NCBI GenBank assembly: GCA_003165595.1
Contig: PLWQ01000005.1
Span: forward strand, 124,069-163,538
Source: Fibrobacterota bacterium
GTDB taxonomy: Bacteria; Fibrobacterota; Chitinivibrionia; Chitinivibrionales; FEN-1185
Direction of reading: 5' to 3'
Length of the DNA: 39,470 bases
In this document: positions 1,495 to 36,258 of the stretch, piece after piece
How positions within the stretch are numbered: the stretch's first letter is position 1
Layout: every line of letters begins with the position of its first letter
The notes under the pieces: generated by a model
Told to the model about the DNA's origin: nothing
The model's input: only the letters and a program-made list of their open reading frames with translations
The model's database searches: none
Translations under genes and position numbers: made by a program

Positions 1495-3012
1495 TTACTT
1501 CCCAAAATGCTTTTGCAAGAACCCTAAATCAAGCTGCGGATAGACCGGATACCTCGACAAAAGCGCCCCGACTCGCTCCTTCGCCTGCTTCTTCACATTC
1601 GCATCGAGCGCATATTTCGCCTTGCTCGGCTTCCCGGCGTTCTCGCCCGCGGCACTTATTTCCGGCTTCGTCGCCGCAAGCACAGACTTGATAATCGACG
1701 CGATTTCGGCCATTTCTTTCTCGCCCATGCCCAGCGTTGTGACCGCGGGCGTACCGATGCGCAAGCCACTGGTGTACCATGGTCCGTTCGGGTCGAACGG
1801 CAGCGAATTGCGGTTGAGAGTGATCCCGCATTCGCGCGTTGCGCCCTCTGCCTGGCGCCCCGTGAGCCCAAACGAACGGACATCAATAAGCATAAGGTGA
1901 TTATCCGTTCCGCCGGTTGCAAGAGTCATGCCCTCGCGCATGCATGCGCGCGCCAGCGCGCCGGAATTCTCCACAATCTTCTTTGCGTATGCGCCAAACG
2001 ACGGCATATTCGCTTCGGTGAGCGCAATGGCCTTTGCGGCAATGATATGTTCGAGCGGTCCGCCGATGACAAGCGGACAGCCCTTGTCGACGTGTTCGGC
2101 GAATTCCTTCGTGCACAGCACCAGGCCACCTCGGGGGCCGCGAAGGGTTTTGTGCGTCGTGGTGGTTACCACGTGCGCATGCGCCACGGGATTGTTGTTG
2201 CCGGTAAACACGCGACCCGCGACAAGCCCGGCAAAATGCGCCATGTCGACCATGAGCACCGAACCCGCCTTGTCGGCAATGGCGCGAAGCCGTGCGAAAT
2301 CGATGGCGCGCGGATAGGCGCTGTACCCGGCAAGAAGAATAAGAGGCTTGATCTCCAGGGCCATCTTCTCAATTTCGCTATAATCAAGTAGTCCCGTCTC
2401 CTTGTTTACGCTGTAGGTGTAGGCGTCGAACATCTGGGCCGACACGTTTTGACGGTATCCGTGCGTAAGGTGCCCGCCCGAATAGTAATCCATGCCCATA
2501 AGTCTCTGGTTCCCGGCAACGTGGCGCAACGCGTCCCAGTCGGCCCGGGACATGTGCGCAGGATTGGTGTCGCTGAGCTTGTCCAGCGTCGGCGCTGTTA
2601 CTTTCGCATTGAGGATCGCCCAGTAGGCGATGAGATTGGCGTCCGCGCCGCTGTGAGGCTGCACATACGCGTGGTCGCAGCCAAAGAGTTTGCACGCCTG
2701 CTGCGCGGCGTATTCCTCAATGTCATCCACGTTGCCGCATCCCGCGTAGAACCGGTGGCGGGGAATGCCTTCGGCATATTTGTCGGTGAGCAGGTTCGCC
2801 ATGGCGCATTGCGTCGACAGTGAACAGTAGTTCTCGCTGGCGATCAGTTTGAGGTTGCTGCGCTGGTCGGCGAGCTCCTGGACAATGGAAGCAGCGATCT
2901 GCGGCGCGACTTTGGAGACTTCGGTGAGATTTGCGATGTAAGCAAGAAATCCGGAGTCAACGGCATCGGGCCTTGCAGACGAAAGGTACTCTGAAATTGC
3001 GGTCTGCGGCAT
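1495..3012 (-). CDS. glyA: Serine hydroxymethyltransferase (long form)
   Basis: GlyA is a cytoplasmic PLP enzyme that converts serine and tetrahydrofolate to glycine and 5,10-methylene-tetrahydrofolate, the main one-carbon source of the cell. The PLP-lysine motif is clear (VTTTTHKTLRGPRGG), as are the N-terminal LIASENYCS and YAEGIPRHRFYAGC signatures. At 505 residues it is longer than the roughly 420-residue E. coli type. It has an N-terminal extension and extra internal segments, as in the long SHMTs known from some spirochaetes and chlamydiae. The ATG at 3012 has GGAG seven bases upstream. A ZTP riboswitch fills the leader, so expression should rise when Z nucleotides signal low 10-formyl-THF. 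The convergent panB consumes its product. Confidence 0.96.
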   Translation of the reverse strand: MPQTAISEYLSSARPDAVDSGFLAYIANLTEVSKVAPQIAASIVQELADQRSNLKLIASENYCSLSTQCAMANLLTDKYAEGIPRHRFYAGCGNVDDIEEYAAQQACKLFGCDHAYVQPHSGADANLIAYWAILNAKVTAPTLDKLSDTNPAHMSRADWDALRHVAGNQRLMGMDYYSGGHLTHGYRQNVSAQMFDAYTYSVNKETGLLDYSEIEKMALEIKPLILLAGYSAYPRAIDFARLRAIADKAGSVLMVDMAHFAGLVAGRVFTGNNNPVAHAHVVTTTTHKTLRGPRGGLVLCTKEFAEHVDKGCPLVIGGPLEHIIAAKAIALTEANMPSFGAYAKKIVENSGALARACMREGMTLATGGTDNHLMLIDVRSFGLTGRQAEGATRECGITLNRNSLPFDPNGPWYTSGLRIGTPAVTTLGMGEKEMAEIASIIKSVLAATKPEISAAGENAGKPSKAKYALDANVKKQAKERVGALLSRYPVYPQLDLGFLQKHFGK

Positions 3013-3048
3013 AGGCGGTCTCCTTTTTTGATGCGGTACTGCCCCTTC

Positions 3049-3124
3049 TGCCCAGGCGCGCGACAGATCGGGATATTACTCCCCGATGGTAGGTTCCATC
3101 CAAAGCGCCAGTCGTAATGACCAA
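3049..3124 (-). ncRNA. ZTP (pfl motif) riboswitch upstream of glyA
   Basis: Read on the minus strand, the leader has all the hallmarks of the pfl/ZTP aptamer. P1 is ATTAC/GTAAT, enclosing the conserved ACGACTGGCG. P2 is GATGG/CCATC, followed directly by the conserved GGGGA. The 3' domain ends in GCGCCTGGGCA. The GGCG of CTGGCG can form the pseudoknot with CGCC of the 3' domain. The aptamer ends 36 bases before the glyA ATG and no U-rich terminator is visible, so control of translation is the likelier mode. One possible switch is CGCC of ACCGCC next to the start codon competing for the aptamer's GGCG. The class senses ZTP/ZMP and is known to control folate and one-carbon genes including glyA. 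Confidence 0.88.
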
Positions 3125-3549
3125 TAAAATAATTTAGGAACGGATTGCTTTTTATTAGATTAGATGAGAGGTAAAAAAAGATAAGAATAATTTGGGCGCC
3201 CCGCCGCGATGCGGCGGCGGCCCTCCTTGCGCGCTCGGCCGGTGGGCCTCGGTGCCGCCTGCCACAATGGCCCTTCGGGCCGTGGTCAGGCGGCACTGCG
3301 CTCTGGCGCACTCTCCAGTCCGGCCTGGCGCTTGGCAGGAGATACATGCAACACATGTCCCAACAGCCTTCGCACACGAATCAAGTTCCAAAAGGAAATG
3401 CCGGTGGTCTCGTTTTTCGCCGTCAGCAATTATGAAAAGTAAACTAATGAATGGAAGAATGTGGCGTGTCATTGCGAGCGAAGCGAAGCAATCTCCCGAA
3501 TATTCTCGGGTTCAAATGCCCCGAGGTGAACAACCGAACCCGGAGATTC
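3125..3549. repeat. Repeat-rich divergent region between glyA and the peptidase gene
   Basis: An AT-rich stretch at 3125-3195 probably holds the glyA promoter. A GC-rich block follows with CCGCCGC-GAT-GCGGCGG at 3201-3217 and a long nested hairpin at 3253-3295. The hairpin's arms are TGCCGCCTG/CAGGCGGCA, CCAC/GTGG and GGCCC/GGGCC around a TTC loop. At 3465-3495 lies the widely dispersed intergenic element CATTGCGAGCGAAGCGAAGC followed by AATCTC. Its spurious translation VIASEAKQSP is seen in many unrelated genomes. CCCGA-ATATTC-TCGGG follows at 3495-3510. An open frame crosses this region in phase with the peptidase gene but is repeat sequence, not protein. Confidence 0.6.
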
Positions 3550-29602: not shown

Positions 29603-31599
29603 TTACTTGATTTCCTCAATCGCAATGAGCGGCTGGTCCTTTTCGACCATGGCGCCGTCTTCGACGAGGAATTGCAGAATTTTGCATTTGACGGGCGTGA
29701 CGATTTCGTTGAAGAGCTTCATGGCTTCGACAATGCACACTTTTCCACCGGCCTCAACCATGTCGCCCACGCCCACGAACTTGGGCTTGCCCGGCCCGGA
29801 CGTGGAGTAGAACGTTCCCACCAGCGGCGCCTTGATCGACATGCCGGCCGGCACCGGGGTGGCAAGCGGAACTTGTTTCTCTTCCCTAACGGCTGCCGGC
29901 TTGATTTCTGCGGGTTTGTCCCGATTCCTGCTTGCGGCCGCAGCCGCAGGTTCGACCGGTGCCGGCTTGGAAACAACGGGGCTTCTATTGACGTCGGATT
30001 TGAGCGATAGGGAGAAATCGCCTTTCTTTACAGTCAACTCGTCCAGGTGCAGGCCGCCTGCCTTGTCCAGAAGCTCGCTCAGGCCGCGGTAATCTTCCTG
30101 GTGCAGGATCTGGTCGAGCGTCGGGACATCCTGTTTCTTCTCCGCTGCAGCCGGCTTCTTTTCCGTCGAGCTCCGCAGTTTCCGGATCTCGATGTCGGCC
30201 GGCGACTCCGGACGTTTATCCGGTGGTAAATCGCGCCACTTGAAATACTCGAGGCTCGGCTCGGGCAAAATGCAATAGGAAATGATGTCTTCCTCATTCT
30301 TGATATATCTGGGATCGATGCCTTCGGTGGCCTTCGGCAGCATGGGAGGAATCGTGTCGCCCGGCCGTGCGGTTATCGGCTTTTCGTCGCCCAATATCTT
30401 TTTGACAAGCTCGGCGTTCATCTTCCCGGGCGCGCGTCCGTACAGCCCGCGAAAATAGTCCTTCACCTCGTTGGGGACGATCTTGTAGCGCTCGCCGGCA
30501 AGAATGTTCATCGTCGCCTGCGTCCCCACGATCTGGCTCGTGGGCGTCACCAGCGGCGGCCAGCCGAGGTCCTCGCGCACGCGCGTGACTTCGGCAAGGG
30601 CGTCTTCTAATTTGTCAAGAGCATTTTGCTTTGACAGCTGCGAGCGGAAGTTGGAGATCATGCCGCCCGGGATCTGATGTATCAGAATCTGGGGATCGAT
30701 ACAGAACATCTGCGAAGTATCGGTGTTGCGCTGCGGATACAGGTCTGCAAAATACCGGTGAACCTTGAGCATGGCATCCCGGTCGAGGTCCGCATGATAA
30801 TCGGTTTCCGCGAATATCGCCGCCATGGTCTCCACGGGCGGCTGGCTGCTGGTGCCCGCCATCGCCGCGATGGCGCAATCGATGGCGCCCGCGCCGGCCC
30901 GCACGCCTTCGACGTAGCTGGAAATCGCCATGCCCGAGCTGGCATGGCAATGCAACTGAATGGGTATGTCGAGCTCCTTGACAAGGGCGCTCACCAGCCG
31001 CTCGGCCATGATCGGCGAAAGGATGCCTGCCATATCTTTAATGCAAATGGAATCGACCCCGAGCTGCTTCTGCTCGCGCGCATACTCCACGAATTTCTTG
31101 ATGGTGTGCACCGGACTGATGGTGTAACAAAGCGTACCCTGCGCATGACCGCCGTGCTTCTTGACGGCGCGCACCGCCGCCTCGATGTTTCGCGTATCGT
31201 TGAGTGCATCGAACACCCGGAATATGTCCATGCCGTTCTCACAGGCCAGCGCCACGAAACGGTCGACCACGTCGTCGGCGTAATTACGGTACCCCACCAG
31301 GTTCTGTCCGCGCAAGAGCATCTGCAGCGGCGTCTTTTTGGCCTTGGACTTGATAAGCCGCAATCGCTCCCACGGATTCTCCCGAAGAAAGCGAAGGCAC
31401 ACGTCGAACGTGGCCCCGCCCCAGCATTCGAGGGAATAATATCCGACGCTGTCGATAACGTCGATGATTTTTTCGATGTCCACGGTGCGCATGCGCGTCG
31501 CCCACAGGGACTGATGCGCGTCCCGCAAGGTGGTATCCGTAATGCGAAGCGGTATCCTGTGGAGTTTGTTCTCGACGGTCTGTTTTTTCGCGGTGGCCA
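29603..31599 (-). CDS. Pyruvate/oxaloacetate carboxyltransferase fused to an AccB-type biotin carboxyl carrier
   Basis: The first base of the ATG is at 31600. The 665-residue protein opens with a carboxyltransferase domain of the OadA/PycB type: ITDTTLRDAHQSLWATRMRT (Asp22, Asp27), SICIKDMAGILSP (the modified Lys) and LHCHASSGMAISSY (metal His-x-His). From about residue 500 it becomes AccB. EDYRGLSELLDKAGGLHLDE and LTVKKGDFSLSLKSD match the N-terminal helix region of the acetyl-CoA carboxylase carrier. After a Pro/Ala linker comes APLVGTFYSTSGPGKPKFV, with the AccB-specific thumb, and then CIVEAMKLFNEI, biotinyl Lys628. Ordinary OadA/PycB carriers lack the thumb. It follows accD-accA by 68 bases and pckG lies upstream. 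No separate accB or accC is present. It may serve both acetyl-CoA carboxylase and pyruvate/oxaloacetate conversion. Confidence 0.88.
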
Positions 31600-31668
31600 T
31601 GGTGTATTCCCGTTGGTTTGCGTTGGTCCCGGCGGGTGCGTGCCGGTACTTTTACCTGTCAAATAACA

Positions 31669-32619
31669 CTAGTCTGAAAACAATCCCATTGCGGAGTATT
31701 TTTCGAACCGCAGTTTGAGGAGCTTCGACGTAGAAAAGGCGGAAAGCCTCTTGAGGTGTTTGAGGAGCACCCGCTTTATTTCCTGGGAGGTTTGTTCGTA
31801 GTTGCGGTGCGCGCCGCCAAGAGGTTCCGGAATAATTTCGTCGATGACCTTAAGCGCCAGCAGCGACTGCGCCGTAGGCTTGAGCGCCTCGGCCGCCTGC
31901 GGAGAAAAGGACGCGTCCCGCCACAAAATCGACGCGCACCCCTCCGGCGAAATCACCGAATACACTGAATGCGACATCATGAGCACGGAATCGCCCACGC
32001 CGATGGCGAGTGCACCGCCGCTGCCGCCCTCGCCGGTGATAAGCGCGATTATGGGAACTTCCAGCCGCGCCATTTCCGTGAGGTTCGTGGCAATGGCCTC
32101 GGGCTGCCCCCGTTCTTCGCCTTCGATTCCCGGATATGCTCCTTGCGTGTCGATAAAACACAGGACGGGCAGGTTGTACTTCTCGGCCAGCCTCATCAGG
32201 CGCAGCGCCTTGCGGTATCCCTCGGGTTTTGCCTGTCCAAAATTGCGCTTTATGTTTTCGTCAACATTCTTGCCCTTGTTGTGGCCGATAAGCATTACCC
32301 GTCGTTTCCCGATTGTCGCGAACCCGCCGATGAGCGCCTGGTCGTCGCCGAAGGACCGGTCGCCGTGGAGCTCGACAAAATCGGAAAAAACAAGGGAGAT
32401 ATAGTCGAGAAGGACGGGGCGCTTCGGGTGCCTCGCTATCTGCACCGTCTGCCAGGCCGTGAGGTTGCCGTACAACTCCTGCTTCTGCAGCGCGCATTTT
32501 TTTTCGAGCTCGGCTATCTCGTCGTTATAATGATTCTGATCCGGAGAGATCGACTTGAGCTTTTCGATCATTTTCTCCATCTCGGCAATCGACTTTTCAA
32601 AATCAAAATAGTCATTCAT
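31669..32619 (-). CDS. accA: Acetyl-CoA carboxylase carboxyltransferase subunit alpha
   Basis: AccA and AccD form the heterotetramer that moves the carboxyl group from biotin to acetyl-CoA, giving malonyl-CoA for fatty-acid synthesis. The 316-residue length matches E. coli AccA (319). The N-terminal helical region (FDFEKSIAEMEKMIEKLKSI) and the core motifs ARHPKRPVLLDYI, FVELHGDRSFGDDQALIGG, FIDTQGAYPGIEGEERGQ, ITGEGGSGGALAIGVGD and SPEGCASILWRDASFSPQAA are all present. The ATG at 32619 is taken because AccA homology begins at MNDYFDFEKS. Longer upstream reading overlaps accD. It starts 25 bases after the accD stop. Confidence 0.95.
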   Translation of the reverse strand: MNDYFDFEKSIAEMEKMIEKLKSISPDQNHYNDEIAELEKKCALQKQELYGNLTAWQTVQIARHPKRPVLLDYISLVFSDFVELHGDRSFGDDQALIGGFATIGKRRVMLIGHNKGKNVDENIKRNFGQAKPEGYRKALRLMRLAEKYNLPVLCFIDTQGAYPGIEGEERGQPEAIATNLTEMARLEVPIIALITGEGGSGGALAIGVGDSVLMMSHSVYSVISPEGCASILWRDASFSPQAAEALKPTAQSLLALKVIDEIIPEPLGGAHRNYEQTSQEIKRVLLKHLKRLSAFSTSKLLKLRFEKYSAMGLFSD

Positions 32620-32644
32620 AGCGGATAGCCCTGATCGGGATCGG

Positions 32645-33481
32645 TTAACGATTGTAATACTGCAGCACGTTCTTGAGGGTATCTTTGAGCTTCTTGCGCT
32701 CGACGATAAGATCGATAAACCCATGCTCCAGGAAGTATTCCGAGGTCTGAAAATTATCCGGAAGCTTTTGTCTGATGGTCTGCTCTATCACGCGCCTGCC
32801 GGCAAATCCTATGAGTGCTCCGGGCTCGGCAATGTTGACGTCGCCGACCATGGCGTAACTTGCAATCACGCCGCCGGTGGTCGGATCGGTGAGCACGGAA
32901 ACGTAGGGAATTTTCTTTTCGCGGAGCCGCGCAATTCCTGCGCAAGTTTTTGCCATCTGCATCAGCGACAGGGTGCCTTCCTGCATGCGCGCCCCGCCCG
33001 AAGCTGAGAAGATTATGTAGGGTATCTTGTGCTCATAGGCATAATTGGCAGCAAGCAGAATCTTTTCTCCCGTTGCGCTGCCAAGGCTGCCGCCGAAAAA
33101 TCGGAAATCCATCACCGCGATGGATACGGGAATATCGTGAATCTTCCCGATGCCGCATACCACGGATTCGTTGAGTCCGGTTTTGTCCTGGGTTTGCTTG
33201 ACTATGTCTTTGTAACTGCCCCTTGTCCACACAAACGAGAGCGGGTCCGACGGACTGATGCGGCCGAACATCTCCTTGAACGTATCGATATCAAGTATTT
33301 GGCCGATGCGTTCGTAGGCCGTGAGTCTTCCGTGGAAGCCGCACTTGGGGCACACACTGAGGGAATTGAACCAGTCTTCCTTGAAAACATGCGCGTTACA
33401 AGACCCGCACTTTACCCAAATGTCGTCCTTTACGGGCTTGCGCTTCTCTTCGGAGGTCTTTGACTTGATGAACCAGGGCAC
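32645..33481 (-). CDS. accD: Acetyl-CoA carboxylase carboxyltransferase subunit beta
   Basis: The 278-residue partner of AccA carries the N-terminal zinc ribbon (Cys25, Cys28, Cys44, Cys47 in VKCGSCNAHVF and LSVCPKCGFHG). The carboxyltransferase core follows: GRISPSDPLSFVWTRG, VVCGIGKIHDIPVSIAVMDF, GGSLGSATGEKI, IIFSASGGARMQEGTLSLMQ, SVLTDPTTGGVIASYAMVGD and IGFAGRRVIEQTIRQKLPD. The ribbon of E. coli AccD can bind its own mRNA, and that could apply here. It heads the accD-accA-fusion operon, with a promoter and inverted repeat immediately upstream in the gap after pckG. Confidence 0.96.
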   Translation of the reverse strand: MPWFIKSKTSEEKRKPVKDDIWVKCGSCNAHVFKEDWFNSLSVCPKCGFHGRLTAYERIGQILDIDTFKEMFGRISPSDPLSFVWTRGSYKDIVKQTQDKTGLNESVVCGIGKIHDIPVSIAVMDFRFFGGSLGSATGEKILLAANYAYEHKIPYIIFSASGGARMQEGTLSLMQMAKTCAGIARLREKKIPYVSVLTDPTTGGVIASYAMVGDVNIAEPGALIGFAGRRVIEQTIRQKLPDNFQTSEYFLEHGFIDLIVERKKLKDTLKNVLQYYNR

Positions 33482-33600: not shown

Positions 33601-35409
33601 CTATCCGAGCCGCTTCTCCAGCGCCGACAGCTCGTCGGATAGCGCAGCCGGCAGCTTGCTGCCGAGTTTCTTGTAATGATCCTTTATACCCACCACCTCT
33701 TTCTTCCATTCCGCGACATCCACCTTGAACAGCTCTTTCATGTCGGAGGCAGTCACCTGCAAGCCATTGGTATCAATGCCGTCCTGAGAAGGCAAATATC
33801 CGATGGGAGACTCAACGCCGTTTGCCGAGCCTTCGGTACGCTCAAAAATCCATTTGAGCACGCGGCTGTTCTCTCCATATCCGGGCCACAACCACTTGCC
33901 GTCGTCACTCTTGCGGAACCAGTTGACATAGAAAATCTTGGGCAATTTTTCGGCCGAGGTCTTTGTGCCGATGCTTATCCAGTGAGCCAGATAATCTCCC
34001 ATGTTGTACCCGCAGAACGGCAACATGGCAAAGGGATCGCGGCGCACAACGCCAACCGCGCCTATATTGGCGGTCGTCGTTTCCGAACCGACGATTGAGC
34101 CGAGAAAGACGCCGTGATTCCACGAAAATGCCTGATGCACCAGCGGTATCGTTGTCGGCCTGCGGCCTCCGACAAGAATGGCGCTTATCGGCACGCCCAG
34201 GGGATTTTCCCACGCCGGGTCGACCACCGGACACTGGGTCGCGGGAGCGGTAAACCGCGCGTTGGGGTGCGCACCGACCCTGCGGGCGCTCATATCCCAT
34301 TCCTGGCCGGTCCAGTCGATGTTTTTCCCTTGAGGCGGATCAAACCCTATTCCTTCCCACCATACGTCATTGTCCTGGGTGAGAACAACATTGGTGTACA
34401 ACGTGTTCTTCTGGATCGATAGCATGGCGTTGGCGTTTGAATCCATGGACGTTCCCGGAACCACGCCGAAAAAACCCGATTCGGGATTGATGGCGTAGAG
34501 CCTGCCGTCCGGACCGAACTTCATCCATGCGATGTCGTCCCCGACGGTTTCGACTTTCCATCCGGGAATAGTGGGAATCATCATGGCAAGATTCGTTTTC
34601 CCGCAGGCGCTGGGGAAAGCGGCCGCGAAGTACTTCTTCTTGCCCTGCGGATTGGTGATTCCCAGGATAAGCATGTGCTCGGCAAGCCATCCCTCATCGC
34701 GCGCCTGAACCGACGCGATGCGCAAGGCAAAACATTTCTTTCCCAGCAGCGCGTTACCGCCATACCCCGACCCGTAGGACCAGATGGTACGTTCTTCGGG
34801 AAAATGGCTTATGTACTTATTGGCGATGTCGGGTGCGCACGGCCATGTTGAATCCTTTTGTCCTTTTGCAAGCGGCGCGCCCACCGAATGAAGGCACGGC
34901 ACGAATTCGCCGGTGCTCCCAAGCGCGTCGAGAACTCTGGTGCCGATGCGGGTCATGATGCGCATGTTGACAACCACGTACGGCGAATCCGTAATCTCAA
35001 CACCGATCTTCGATATGGACGACCCAATGGGCCCCATTGAGAATGGTATCACGTACATGGTACGACCCTTCATGCAGCCGGTATAGAGCGCGGTCATCTT
35101 CTTCTTGAGCTCGGCCGGATCCATCCAGTTGTTCGTCGGGCCGGCATCGTCTTTGGTACGCGATGCGATGTAGGTTCTGTCTTCCACGCGCGCGACATCC
35201 GACGGATGGCTGCGGAAAAGGAAACAACCGGGTTTCTTGCCCGGATTGAGCCGTGTTGCCATACCCGAGTCCACCATGTGGTTGCAAAGGCCGTCATATT
35301 CCTCCTGGCTGCCGTCGCACCAGTGAATCTCGTCAGGTTGACACATGGCAGCGGCTTCTGTTACCCACTGTCCAAGCTTCTTATGCGAAATTGACGTGTT
35401 CGATGTCAT
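33601..35409 (-). CDS. pckG: Phosphoenolpyruvate carboxykinase (GTP)
   Basis: The 602-residue cytoplasmic enzyme interconverts oxaloacetate plus GTP with PEP, CO2 and GDP. Family motifs are clear: [13 protein letters not shown] near the N terminus, [20 protein letters not shown], the kinase loop [15 protein letters not shown] (with the active-site Cys), [20 protein letters not shown], and [20 protein letters not shown] near the end. Length is typical for the GTP class. In anaerobic fermenters this enzyme often runs towards oxaloacetate for succinate formation. Here it lies just upstream of accDA and an oxaloacetate/pyruvate carboxyltransferase, which would use or remake oxaloacetate. A 54-base spacer separates it from an intrinsic terminator in its leader, so attenuation is likely. 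Confidence 0.96.
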
Positions 35410-35463
35410 GGATTCCTTCCCCTTGTTAAGAGACGGTCACTCAAACTGGTAAAAAGACGGCGC

Positions 35464-35504
35464 AAAAAAAGACCAGAGAATTGCCCTTCGGCATTTCTTT
35501 GGTC
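35464..35504 (-). terminator. Intrinsic terminator in the pckG leader
   Basis: On the minus strand the hairpin 35504-35471 (GACCA ... TGGTC outer pairs, TGCC-GAAG-GGCA at the tip) is followed by seven T (35470-35464), then 54 bases to the pckG ATG. Confidence 0.8.
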
Positions 35505-35644
35505 ATCACCCCCGAACAGCCTCTTTTGCAAGAGTCAACCGGGCTTGAAACCAAGCCGCATGTGAAACAGCCAAGCGCCGCGTGGGGTATCCGCAATGCC
35601 TGCAACGAGATTCGCCGCCTGCATCACCGGCTACCGAACGGCAC
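35464..35644 (-). ncRNA. Candidate structured leader or small RNA upstream of pckG
   Basis: A transcript from the promoter at 35651-35680 to the terminator would be about 180 nt. It contains the perfect hairpins GGCTTG-GTTT-CAAGCC (35542-35557) and CTCTT-GCAA-AAGAG (35521-35534), two copies of TGCAGGC, and GGCATT near 35600. GGCATT could pair with AATGCC of the terminator's 5' arm as an anti-terminator. It matches no riboswitch class I know. It may be a metabolite-sensing or protein-binding leader of pckG, or an independent small RNA of 6S-like size. Confidence 0.5.
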
Positions 35645-35650
35645 TTCAAA

Positions 35651-35680
35651 ATTATAACAGCCCCCCAAAAGTGGCAAGAA
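35651..35680 (-). promoter_or_regulatory. Extended -10 promoter upstream of the pckG leader
   Basis: On the minus strand TATAAT (35651-35656) is preceded by TGT, an extended -10. Possible -35 elements are TTCTTG (35675-35680, 18-bp spacer) or TTGCCA (35672-35677, 15 bp). Transcription would start near 35644. Confidence 0.65.
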
Positions 35681-35877: not shown

Positions 35878-36258
35878 TCAATCGTCCAGCGCCTTCTTGT
35901 CGAGGGTAAATATTATGAACCGCTCCCCGCTCATGGTGCTGATGTCGGTGTGCAGACTCTTCACTTTGCGCTTGAGAATATCCTTGATGATTTCTTCGAG
36001 CAGCGGCCTGCCGTTTTCAAGAAGCTCAATGCGCACCTGTTTGATAAGATCACGGGCCTTGGAGTTGCGCTCCGATTTCACAAGCCGGTATTCCGCCTTG
36101 GTGAGCACGCCCTTGAGACGGACAATAACCATGTCGTCCATAATATAAGTGCGCGTCTCCAGCGGACCGCGGCCCATGAATTCCTTCTCGAACCGCGTGA
36201 CGGCCTCGCTGATTTCGGCCTCAACCTGGCCTTTGGTCTTTTCCATTTTTCCGAGCAT
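35878..36258 (-). CDS. DUF2294 family protein
   Basis: The 126-residue cytoplasmic protein fits DUF2294: a leading helix (KGQVEAEISEAVTRFEKEFMGRGP), strands TRTYIMDDMVIVRLKGVLT with AEYRLV, a helical middle and a final strand (MSGERFIIFTLDK). The RGP motif after the first helix is characteristic. The biochemical role of the family is not established. The ATG at 36258 has GAGG six bases upstream, better than the in-frame ATG at 36246. A near-perfect inverted repeat (36277-36309) lies directly upstream. Confidence 0.75.
   Translation of the reverse strand: MLGKMEKTKGQVEAEISEAVTRFEKEFMGRGPLETRTYIMDDMVIVRLKGVLTKAEYRLVKSERNSKARDLIKQVRIELLENGRPLLEEIIKDILKRKVKSLHTDISTMSGERFIIFTLDKKALDD

Follow-up and report, generated by a model that had tools for sequence, protein, structure and literature searches.

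Gene organization at the pckG locus

A gene cluster containing pckG, accD, accA and a pycB/oadA-like gene is located on the minus strand of the window, the whole stretch of 39,470 nucleotides of Fibrobacterota DNA that was analysed. The genes pckG (33601..35409), accD (32645..33481), accA (31669..32724) and pycB/oadA-like (29603..31600) follow the leader described below in this order. They encode a GTP-type phosphoenolpyruvate carboxykinase (PEPCK) (PF00821, PF17297), the acetyl-CoA carboxylase carboxyltransferase subunits beta (Zn ribbon and Carboxyl_trans domains) and alpha (PF03255), and a biotin carboxylase subunit (PF02436, HMGL-like, Biotin_lipoyl), respectively. A pycB/oadA gene is found downstream by Pfam in the window and in genome G003, and by eye in G006 and G012. 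The nearest named pckG locus belongs to a Fibrobacteres MAG (77% identity). For Chitinispirillum alkaliphilum, PEPCK is reported as not identified (PMC4814513).

An mpsC-like gene (35878..36258, minus strand; PF10057) lies upstream of the leader on the same strand; it is regarded as a neighbour and is not thought to be under the control of the leader. An mpsC-like gene also precedes the RNA in G021, G011, G003 and G006 (Pfam) and in G001 and G015 (by eye). In G021, G011, G003, G006 and G015 this arrangement occurs at accD-type loci that lack pckG.

Promoter, leader RNA and terminator

The leader lies between a promoter and pckG. The promoter (35651..35677, minus strand) consists of a -35 element, TTGCCA (35677-35672), and an extended -10 element, TGTTATAAT (35659-35651), within which TATAAT occupies 35656-35651. 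The spacing is 15 nt from the hexamer TTGCCA and 16 nt if the -35 element is read as CTTGCC. The leader RNA (35464..35646, minus strand) is about 180 nt long, with a predicted start near 35645 and a 3' end in a run of T, and contains three hairpins. P1 is a long hairpin (35572..35646, minus strand) interrupted by a G.A mismatch (GGTA-G-CCG / CGG-A-TACC) and by an internal loop of 2x2 type (AG/AG), and P2 (35506..35548, minus strand) has the form TCA-AG-CCCGG...CGGG-GG-TGA. P3 (35464..35504, minus strand) is an intrinsic terminator whose stem bears two internal mismatches; its stem-loop, GACCAAAGAAATGCC-GAAG-GGCAATTCTCTGGTC (35504-35471, GAAG forming the loop), is followed by seven T residues (35470-35464). 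A 54-nt spacer (35410..35463, minus strand) with the ribosome-binding site GGGGAAGG separates the T run from the pckG ATG at 35409, and no promoter better than shuffles was found in it.

This layout on the minus strand confirms the first-pass annotation, which had placed a promoter, about 180 nt of structured RNA and an intrinsic terminator 54 nt before pckG. The order of promoter, leader RNA and intrinsic terminator ahead of the gene is that expected of an attenuation leader. The 189-nt leader fold has an energy of -80.5 kcal/mol (z -3.67), and none of 200 dinucleotide shuffles was equally stable. The terminator hairpin alone gave a z of -4.51 (0/200 shuffles as stable) and P1 a z of -3.40 (1/200). 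A simple consensus scan of the window reported neither promoter nor terminator at the leader, in our opinion because of the two 1x1 mismatches in the terminator stem and the short promoter spacing.

Distribution of the leader in the phylum

The genomes searched comprised 40 members of the window's order and 127 other members of the phylum, 167 in total. The covariance models R1, R2 and R3 were built from two, eight and sixteen leaders, respectively; their E-values come from a shortened calibration, and stricter filters were applied in the searches across the 167 genomes. The window leader, itself one of the 16 members of R3, is matched by this model with 83.8 bits (35463-35634).

A close pckG (at least 70% identity in the main piece) is present in 12 of the 40 order genomes, the gene of G002 being split over two contigs. 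By inspection, a promoter-RNA-terminator leader precedes it in all 12; a lack of hairpin conservation in relatives, which the first-pass annotation had named as refuting its reading, is not seen. The leader of G030 is reduced (only 15-17 bits) and was excluded from the site tally, and that of G035 has a degenerate, decayed terminator. The distance from the T run to the start of the PEPCK match is 33-101 nt across the leaders of close pckG genes.

Covariance models and targeted scans together identified 20 sites in 18 of the 40 order genomes: 11 before close pckG (without G030), three before distant PEPCK genes, five before accD and one before fabD. At E <= 0.05, R3 gave 20 matches over the order besides one antisense copy. 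In nineteen of them, PEPCK, accD or fabD follows immediately on the same strand, 16 of these matches being the model's own members; the twentieth site of the tally, before accD in G015, was added by a targeted scan. The remaining R3 match, in G014 (26 bits, E 0.042), is taken as chance, and no open reading frame of at least 80 amino acids follows it within the locus examined.

Over the 167 phylum genomes, R3 matched 18 genomes at E <= 0.1, all in the window's order, and found no match at this threshold among the 127 genomes outside it. The only match of R1 outside the order in the same set, in G132 (E 0.48), is taken as chance. Of 18 pckG loci in another family of the phylum, 16 showed no leader before the gene, and L117 and L120 comprised only 15 upstream bases; nor was it seen before pckG in G041, also outside the order. 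Named pckG loci from many phyla, 80 in all, gave a single, weak match in place, in L032 (15.4 bits), whose upstream sequence is identical to that of G030 over the compared part. The loci L041 and L048 of this set contained three chance-level matches, all elsewhere than at the leader position of pckG.

Genes located behind the leader

The leader is not specific to pckG: at other sites it is followed by distant PEPCK genes, by accD or by a fabD operon. The distant PEPCK genes behind the leader, found in three genomes (G007, G009 and G015), encode proteins 31-32% identical to that of the window, and the leader precedes accD without an intervening pckG in five (G003, G006, G011, G015 and G021). 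Several of these sites were found by models that did not contain them. R1, searched over the 167 genomes, identified the RNA in G021, where it is flanked by mpsC and accD and pckG is missing from the interval, and in G015 before a distant PEPCK gene (31% identical; Pfam PEPCK_GTP). R2, searched over the order, identified it before fabD in G009 (E 0.0025), where the genes run fabD-fabG-acpP-fabF-rnc, acpP having been assigned by eye; fabD, fabG, acpP and fabF form the fabD operon. R3 found the accD sites of G006 and G011 and the already known pckG site of G035; in G011 the RNA lies between mpsC and accD and had an E-value of 0.117 with R2 and 0.0037 with R3.

Targeted scans of accD, PEPCK and fabD loci placed the RNA ahead of accD in three genomes, namely G003, G006 and G015 (in the last, RNA 2772-2584 and accD 2322-1489 of locus L188), ahead of a distant PEPCK gene paired with accD in G007, and ahead of the distant PEPCK gene of G009. 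The first scores of these five sites were just 22-28 bits. Two genomes contain two copies before different genes, namely G009 (PEPCK and fabD) and G015 (PEPCK and accD). At the PEPCK site of G015, the long open reading frame upstream of the RNA is divergent, so that the promoter of the PEPCK gene can only be that of the leader or lie within the 67-nt spacer. On contig 97 of G007 (L256 2829-5902), the distant PEPCK gene stands before accD where pckG would otherwise be, as though a replacement of the enzyme had left the leader and the operon in place.

The RNA precedes three of the eight distant PEPCK genes of the order, the other five having been scanned without an upstream match, and one of the 26 fabD loci scanned; these 26 were scanned in full out of a set of 30 (L195-L198, L196-L220). 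Many of the accD loci scanned are without the leader. A match of 15-19 bits before accD in G012 was excluded from the tally. An A+T-rich R3 match of 21 bits on contig 24 of G021 (L149 3998-4099) lies after, not before, a distant PEPCK gene and is probably due to chance.

Because it recurs in relatives before PEPCK, acetyl-CoA carboxylase and, once, fatty-acid-synthesis genes, the leader looks like an undescribed RNA control element and not a quirk of a single genome.

Secondary structure and covariation

In an alignment fitted to R3, 16 leaders share the three hairpins, with 90.0% of 723 cells paired. Changes on both sides were found in 45 of the 50 pairs, compared with 26.9 (sd 2.8) in shuffled alignments and 17-25 when the columns were slid by 1-3, and the covariation score was 0.569 against 0.220. 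An earlier alignment of 10 leaders with R1 had 92.9% of cells paired and changes on both sides in 32 of 50 pairs; both alignments were fitted to the structure of the model. Covariation, proposed in the first-pass annotation as the test of the relatives' leaders, is thus present in the model-fitted alignment. The alignments A4 and A8 were left out of the counts since they contained antisense rows or chance matches. Antisense matches of the models fall on the terminator palindrome.

Without a model, MAFFT and RNAalifold recovered P1 (with the same mismatch) and P3 from six leaders, where 10 of the 34 pairs show changes in both partners, and P3 only from 11 leaders; P2 was recovered in neither set. 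The P3 stem is kept in relatives in the model alignment and in both MAFFT sets. At the lower internal position of this stem, 12 of 16 leaders have a true mismatch, two have G.U and two have a gap or extra base. In P1, G stands opposite A in 11 of the 16 aligned leaders; the model misaligns P1 of the window leader, in which the mismatch is visible in a separate fold. The letters of the 2x2 internal loop of P1 vary across the leaders. P2 follows the pattern TCA-AG-...-RG-TGA, with TCA/TGA in 11 of 16 leaders, and its stem covaries. The hairpins had been described as perfect, which does not hold, as they bear recurrent mismatches.

Promoter recurrence and spacers

Immediately ahead of P1, 10 of 19 leaders have a TTG hexamer followed at 16-18 nt by TATCTT or TATAAT, nine of these promoters having been picked by scoring and that of G026 by eye. 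Two more leaders, that of the window and one of G009, have a spacing of 15 nt. Taken singly, only two of the 19 upstream regions are better than their own shuffles (p 0.01 each), and the promoter assignment is therefore based on repeated occurrence at the same position. The 18 terminator-to-gene spacers long enough to be scored contain no promoter that exceeds shuffles (lowest p 0.10). These spacers measure at most 150 nt in 18 of 19 leaders by the picked start sites; in G011, a later accD start than the picked one is likely.

Comparison with known RNA families and control systems

In Rfam 15 at the gathering score, the sole match in the window is a ZMP/ZTP riboswitch (RF01750, 57.6 bits) at 3043-3125 on the minus strand, and there is none at the leader. 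The next gene after this riboswitch encodes a serine hydroxymethyltransferase (1495-3012; PF00464). A search of the 501-nt leader region up to an E-value of 10 gave one match, Transposase-1, on the opposite strand with 14 bits (gathering score 42.8). 6S RNA is widespread, and the length and hairpins of the leader are broadly 6S-like. However, the 6S model RF00013 had no match at E <= 0.001 in the window's own genome (G000); the same model matches in five of 14 control genomes, and G000 may have a divergent 6S RNA. A known Rfam family, 6S included, was rejected on these results, and it is highly improbable that the leader is an unrecognised member of a known family such as 6S RNA, T-box or a known riboswitch. 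The searches with the 6S and other Rfam models that had been suggested thus yield no known family at the leader, in agreement with the initial remark that no known aptamer motif was recognised.

In the literature, no RNA leader of PEPCK or acetyl-CoA carboxylase was described among the matches listed; apart from the lack of an Rfam match, an earlier description may exist in a list published in 2017, which reportedly contains 224 candidate RNAs. Searches for structured RNAs of Fibrobacteres and for a natural malonyl-CoA riboswitch gave no such leader among the matches listed. The terms carboxykinase, acetyl-CoA carboxylase, fabD and fatty acid do not occur in the main text of PMC2864571. The view of the leader as an undescribed regulatory leader for PEPCK holds as far as it is structured, covarying and without an Rfam match, but is too narrow in its target, as the same RNA also precedes accD and fabD.

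Riboswitches and other attenuating leader RNAs, among them the ZTP, tetrahydrofolate and T-box leaders, resemble this one in having their own promoter, a structured conserved RNA and an intrinsic terminator shortly before a metabolic gene, and in serving several genes of a pathway area. Unlike them, the candidate leader has no detected anti-terminator and no Rfam match, and among the genomes searched it was found in one order of Fibrobacterota only. FapR is a DNA-binding protein repressor that senses malonyl-CoA. Control through the leader would similarly tie the level of a fatty-acid precursor to fabD-type operons, whereas the conserved element here is an RNA. In E. coli, the AccD zinc finger is reported in a review (PMC3896788) to bind accA and accD mRNA in competition with acetyl-CoA. 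The likeness is control of carboxyltransferase genes at the RNA level; the E. coli system acts on translation of the accA and accD mRNAs, whereas the window leader is a separate RNA with a terminator and also precedes PEPCK and fabD.

Search for a switching structure

An anti-terminator formed by GGCATT of the leader and AATGCC of the terminator arm had been proposed. Both sequences are present in the window, but the pairing is found in the window's leader only (one of 16), and this anti-terminator was rejected. G026 and G002 have a different complementary 6-mer, so that any such pair occurs in three of 16 leaders. Pairing of the terminator arms with the upstream RNA in 19 leaders was no better than in shuffles (lowest p 0.07 for the 5' arm and 0.11 for the 3' arm; for G035, an arm other than that of the terminator was used), and another upstream partner of either arm was likewise rejected. 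The mutually exclusive anti-terminator expected of an attenuation leader was thus not found in the 19 leaders. Masking of the ribosome-binding site was rejected too, no pairing in 16 leaders being better than in shuffles (lowest p 0.06). A leader peptide starting inside P3 after a GGAAGTGAGG-like stretch was dropped because its start codon is, by eye, not kept; this position reads ACG, TCG or TTA in some leaders.

Proposed mechanism and alternative explanations

The leader probably acts in cis by transcription attenuation and represents a new structured-RNA family. What is observed is the order of promoter, RNA, terminator and gene, a fold that covaries, and a small set of functionally related genes with which the RNA is associated. 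Read-through as the regulated step, P1-P2 as the sensor and the identity of the signal are inferred. In this mechanism, RNA polymerase would start at the promoter, make P1 and P2 and meet the terminator P3 shortly before the gene. Some transcripts would stop at P3 as an RNA of about 180 nt, and the remaining ones would read through into PEPCK, accD-accA or the fabD operon. Most likely, a signal acting on P1-P2 would set the fraction that reads through; candidates are RNA-binding proteins and metabolites around the acetyl-CoA / malonyl-CoA / oxaloacetate node. Attenuation by read-through is favoured because the only promoter signal found lies upstream of the terminator and no spacer promoter exceeds shuffles. 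The gene set argues for a small regulon in which PEPCK, acetyl-CoA carboxylase and fatty-acid genes are under read-through control. The products of these genes (PEPCK, acetyl-CoA carboxylase, PycB/OadA and FabD-FabG-ACP-FabF) meet at the acetyl-CoA / malonyl-CoA / oxaloacetate node, which hints at a trigger drawn from there without showing it.

The RNA could instead be a free-standing, trans-acting small RNA, with the genes read from other promoters or through constitutive leakage of the terminator, as the first-pass annotation had also considered. Its own promoter and strong terminator would suit such an RNA, as would a terminator sequence that is, by eye, conserved beyond the needs of a bare terminator, and the failure to find an anti-terminator. 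The site in G021, where the RNA is kept next to mpsC although pckG is missing, also fits such an RNA, but it stands before accD. The RNA precedes close and distant PEPCK, accD and fabD in differing neighbourhoods, and two genomes each have two copies before different genes of the set, which speaks for a cis-acting leader and against a free small RNA. Spacers of at most 150 nt in nearly all leaders, without a promoter better than shuffles, also count against it. Given this gene association, a free-standing RNA is unlikely.

Within attenuation, two kinds of sensor can be considered. A metabolite riboswitch, in which P1-P2 would be the putative aptamer for a ligand of the acetyl-CoA / malonyl-CoA / C3-C4 carboxylation node and P3 the expression platform, is put forward tentatively as possible. 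A conserved structured domain does precede several genes of one pathway (PEPCK, accD and fabD), as expected of a riboswitch, with two copies in two genomes, and internal loops recur (G.A in P1; 2x2 loops in P1 and P2); however, a long invariant unpaired core was not seen by eye, and no mutually exclusive structure was found. A protein-binding autoregulatory leader, in which AccA-AccD or another RNA-binding protein on P1-P2 would alter termination, is held slightly less likely. In the window and at the accD sites, accD is the first or second gene after the leader, and an RNA-binding protein is a serious alternative in view of the binding of accA and accD mRNA reported for E. coli AccD (PMC3896788). 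The control described there for E. coli AccD is translational, however, and leaders also precede a lone PEPCK gene (G015 and G009) and the fabD operon, neither of which encodes AccD.

Significance

As a cis-acting attenuation leader, the RNA is a candidate for a new leader-RNA family and an orphan riboswitch. A more far-reaching proposal, which we hold to be improbable, is that it is the first natural riboswitch for carbon entry into fatty acids and C4 acids. It would then sense a CoA thioester, either acetyl-CoA or malonyl-CoA, or else a related signal, and would set the expression of PEPCK, acetyl-CoA carboxylase and FabD together. The leader is a defined RNA of about 180 nt that can be used directly in ligand or protein binding tests. 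If it ties PEPCK, acetyl-CoA carboxylase and fab genes together, one RNA signal may divide carbon between C4 acids and lipids.
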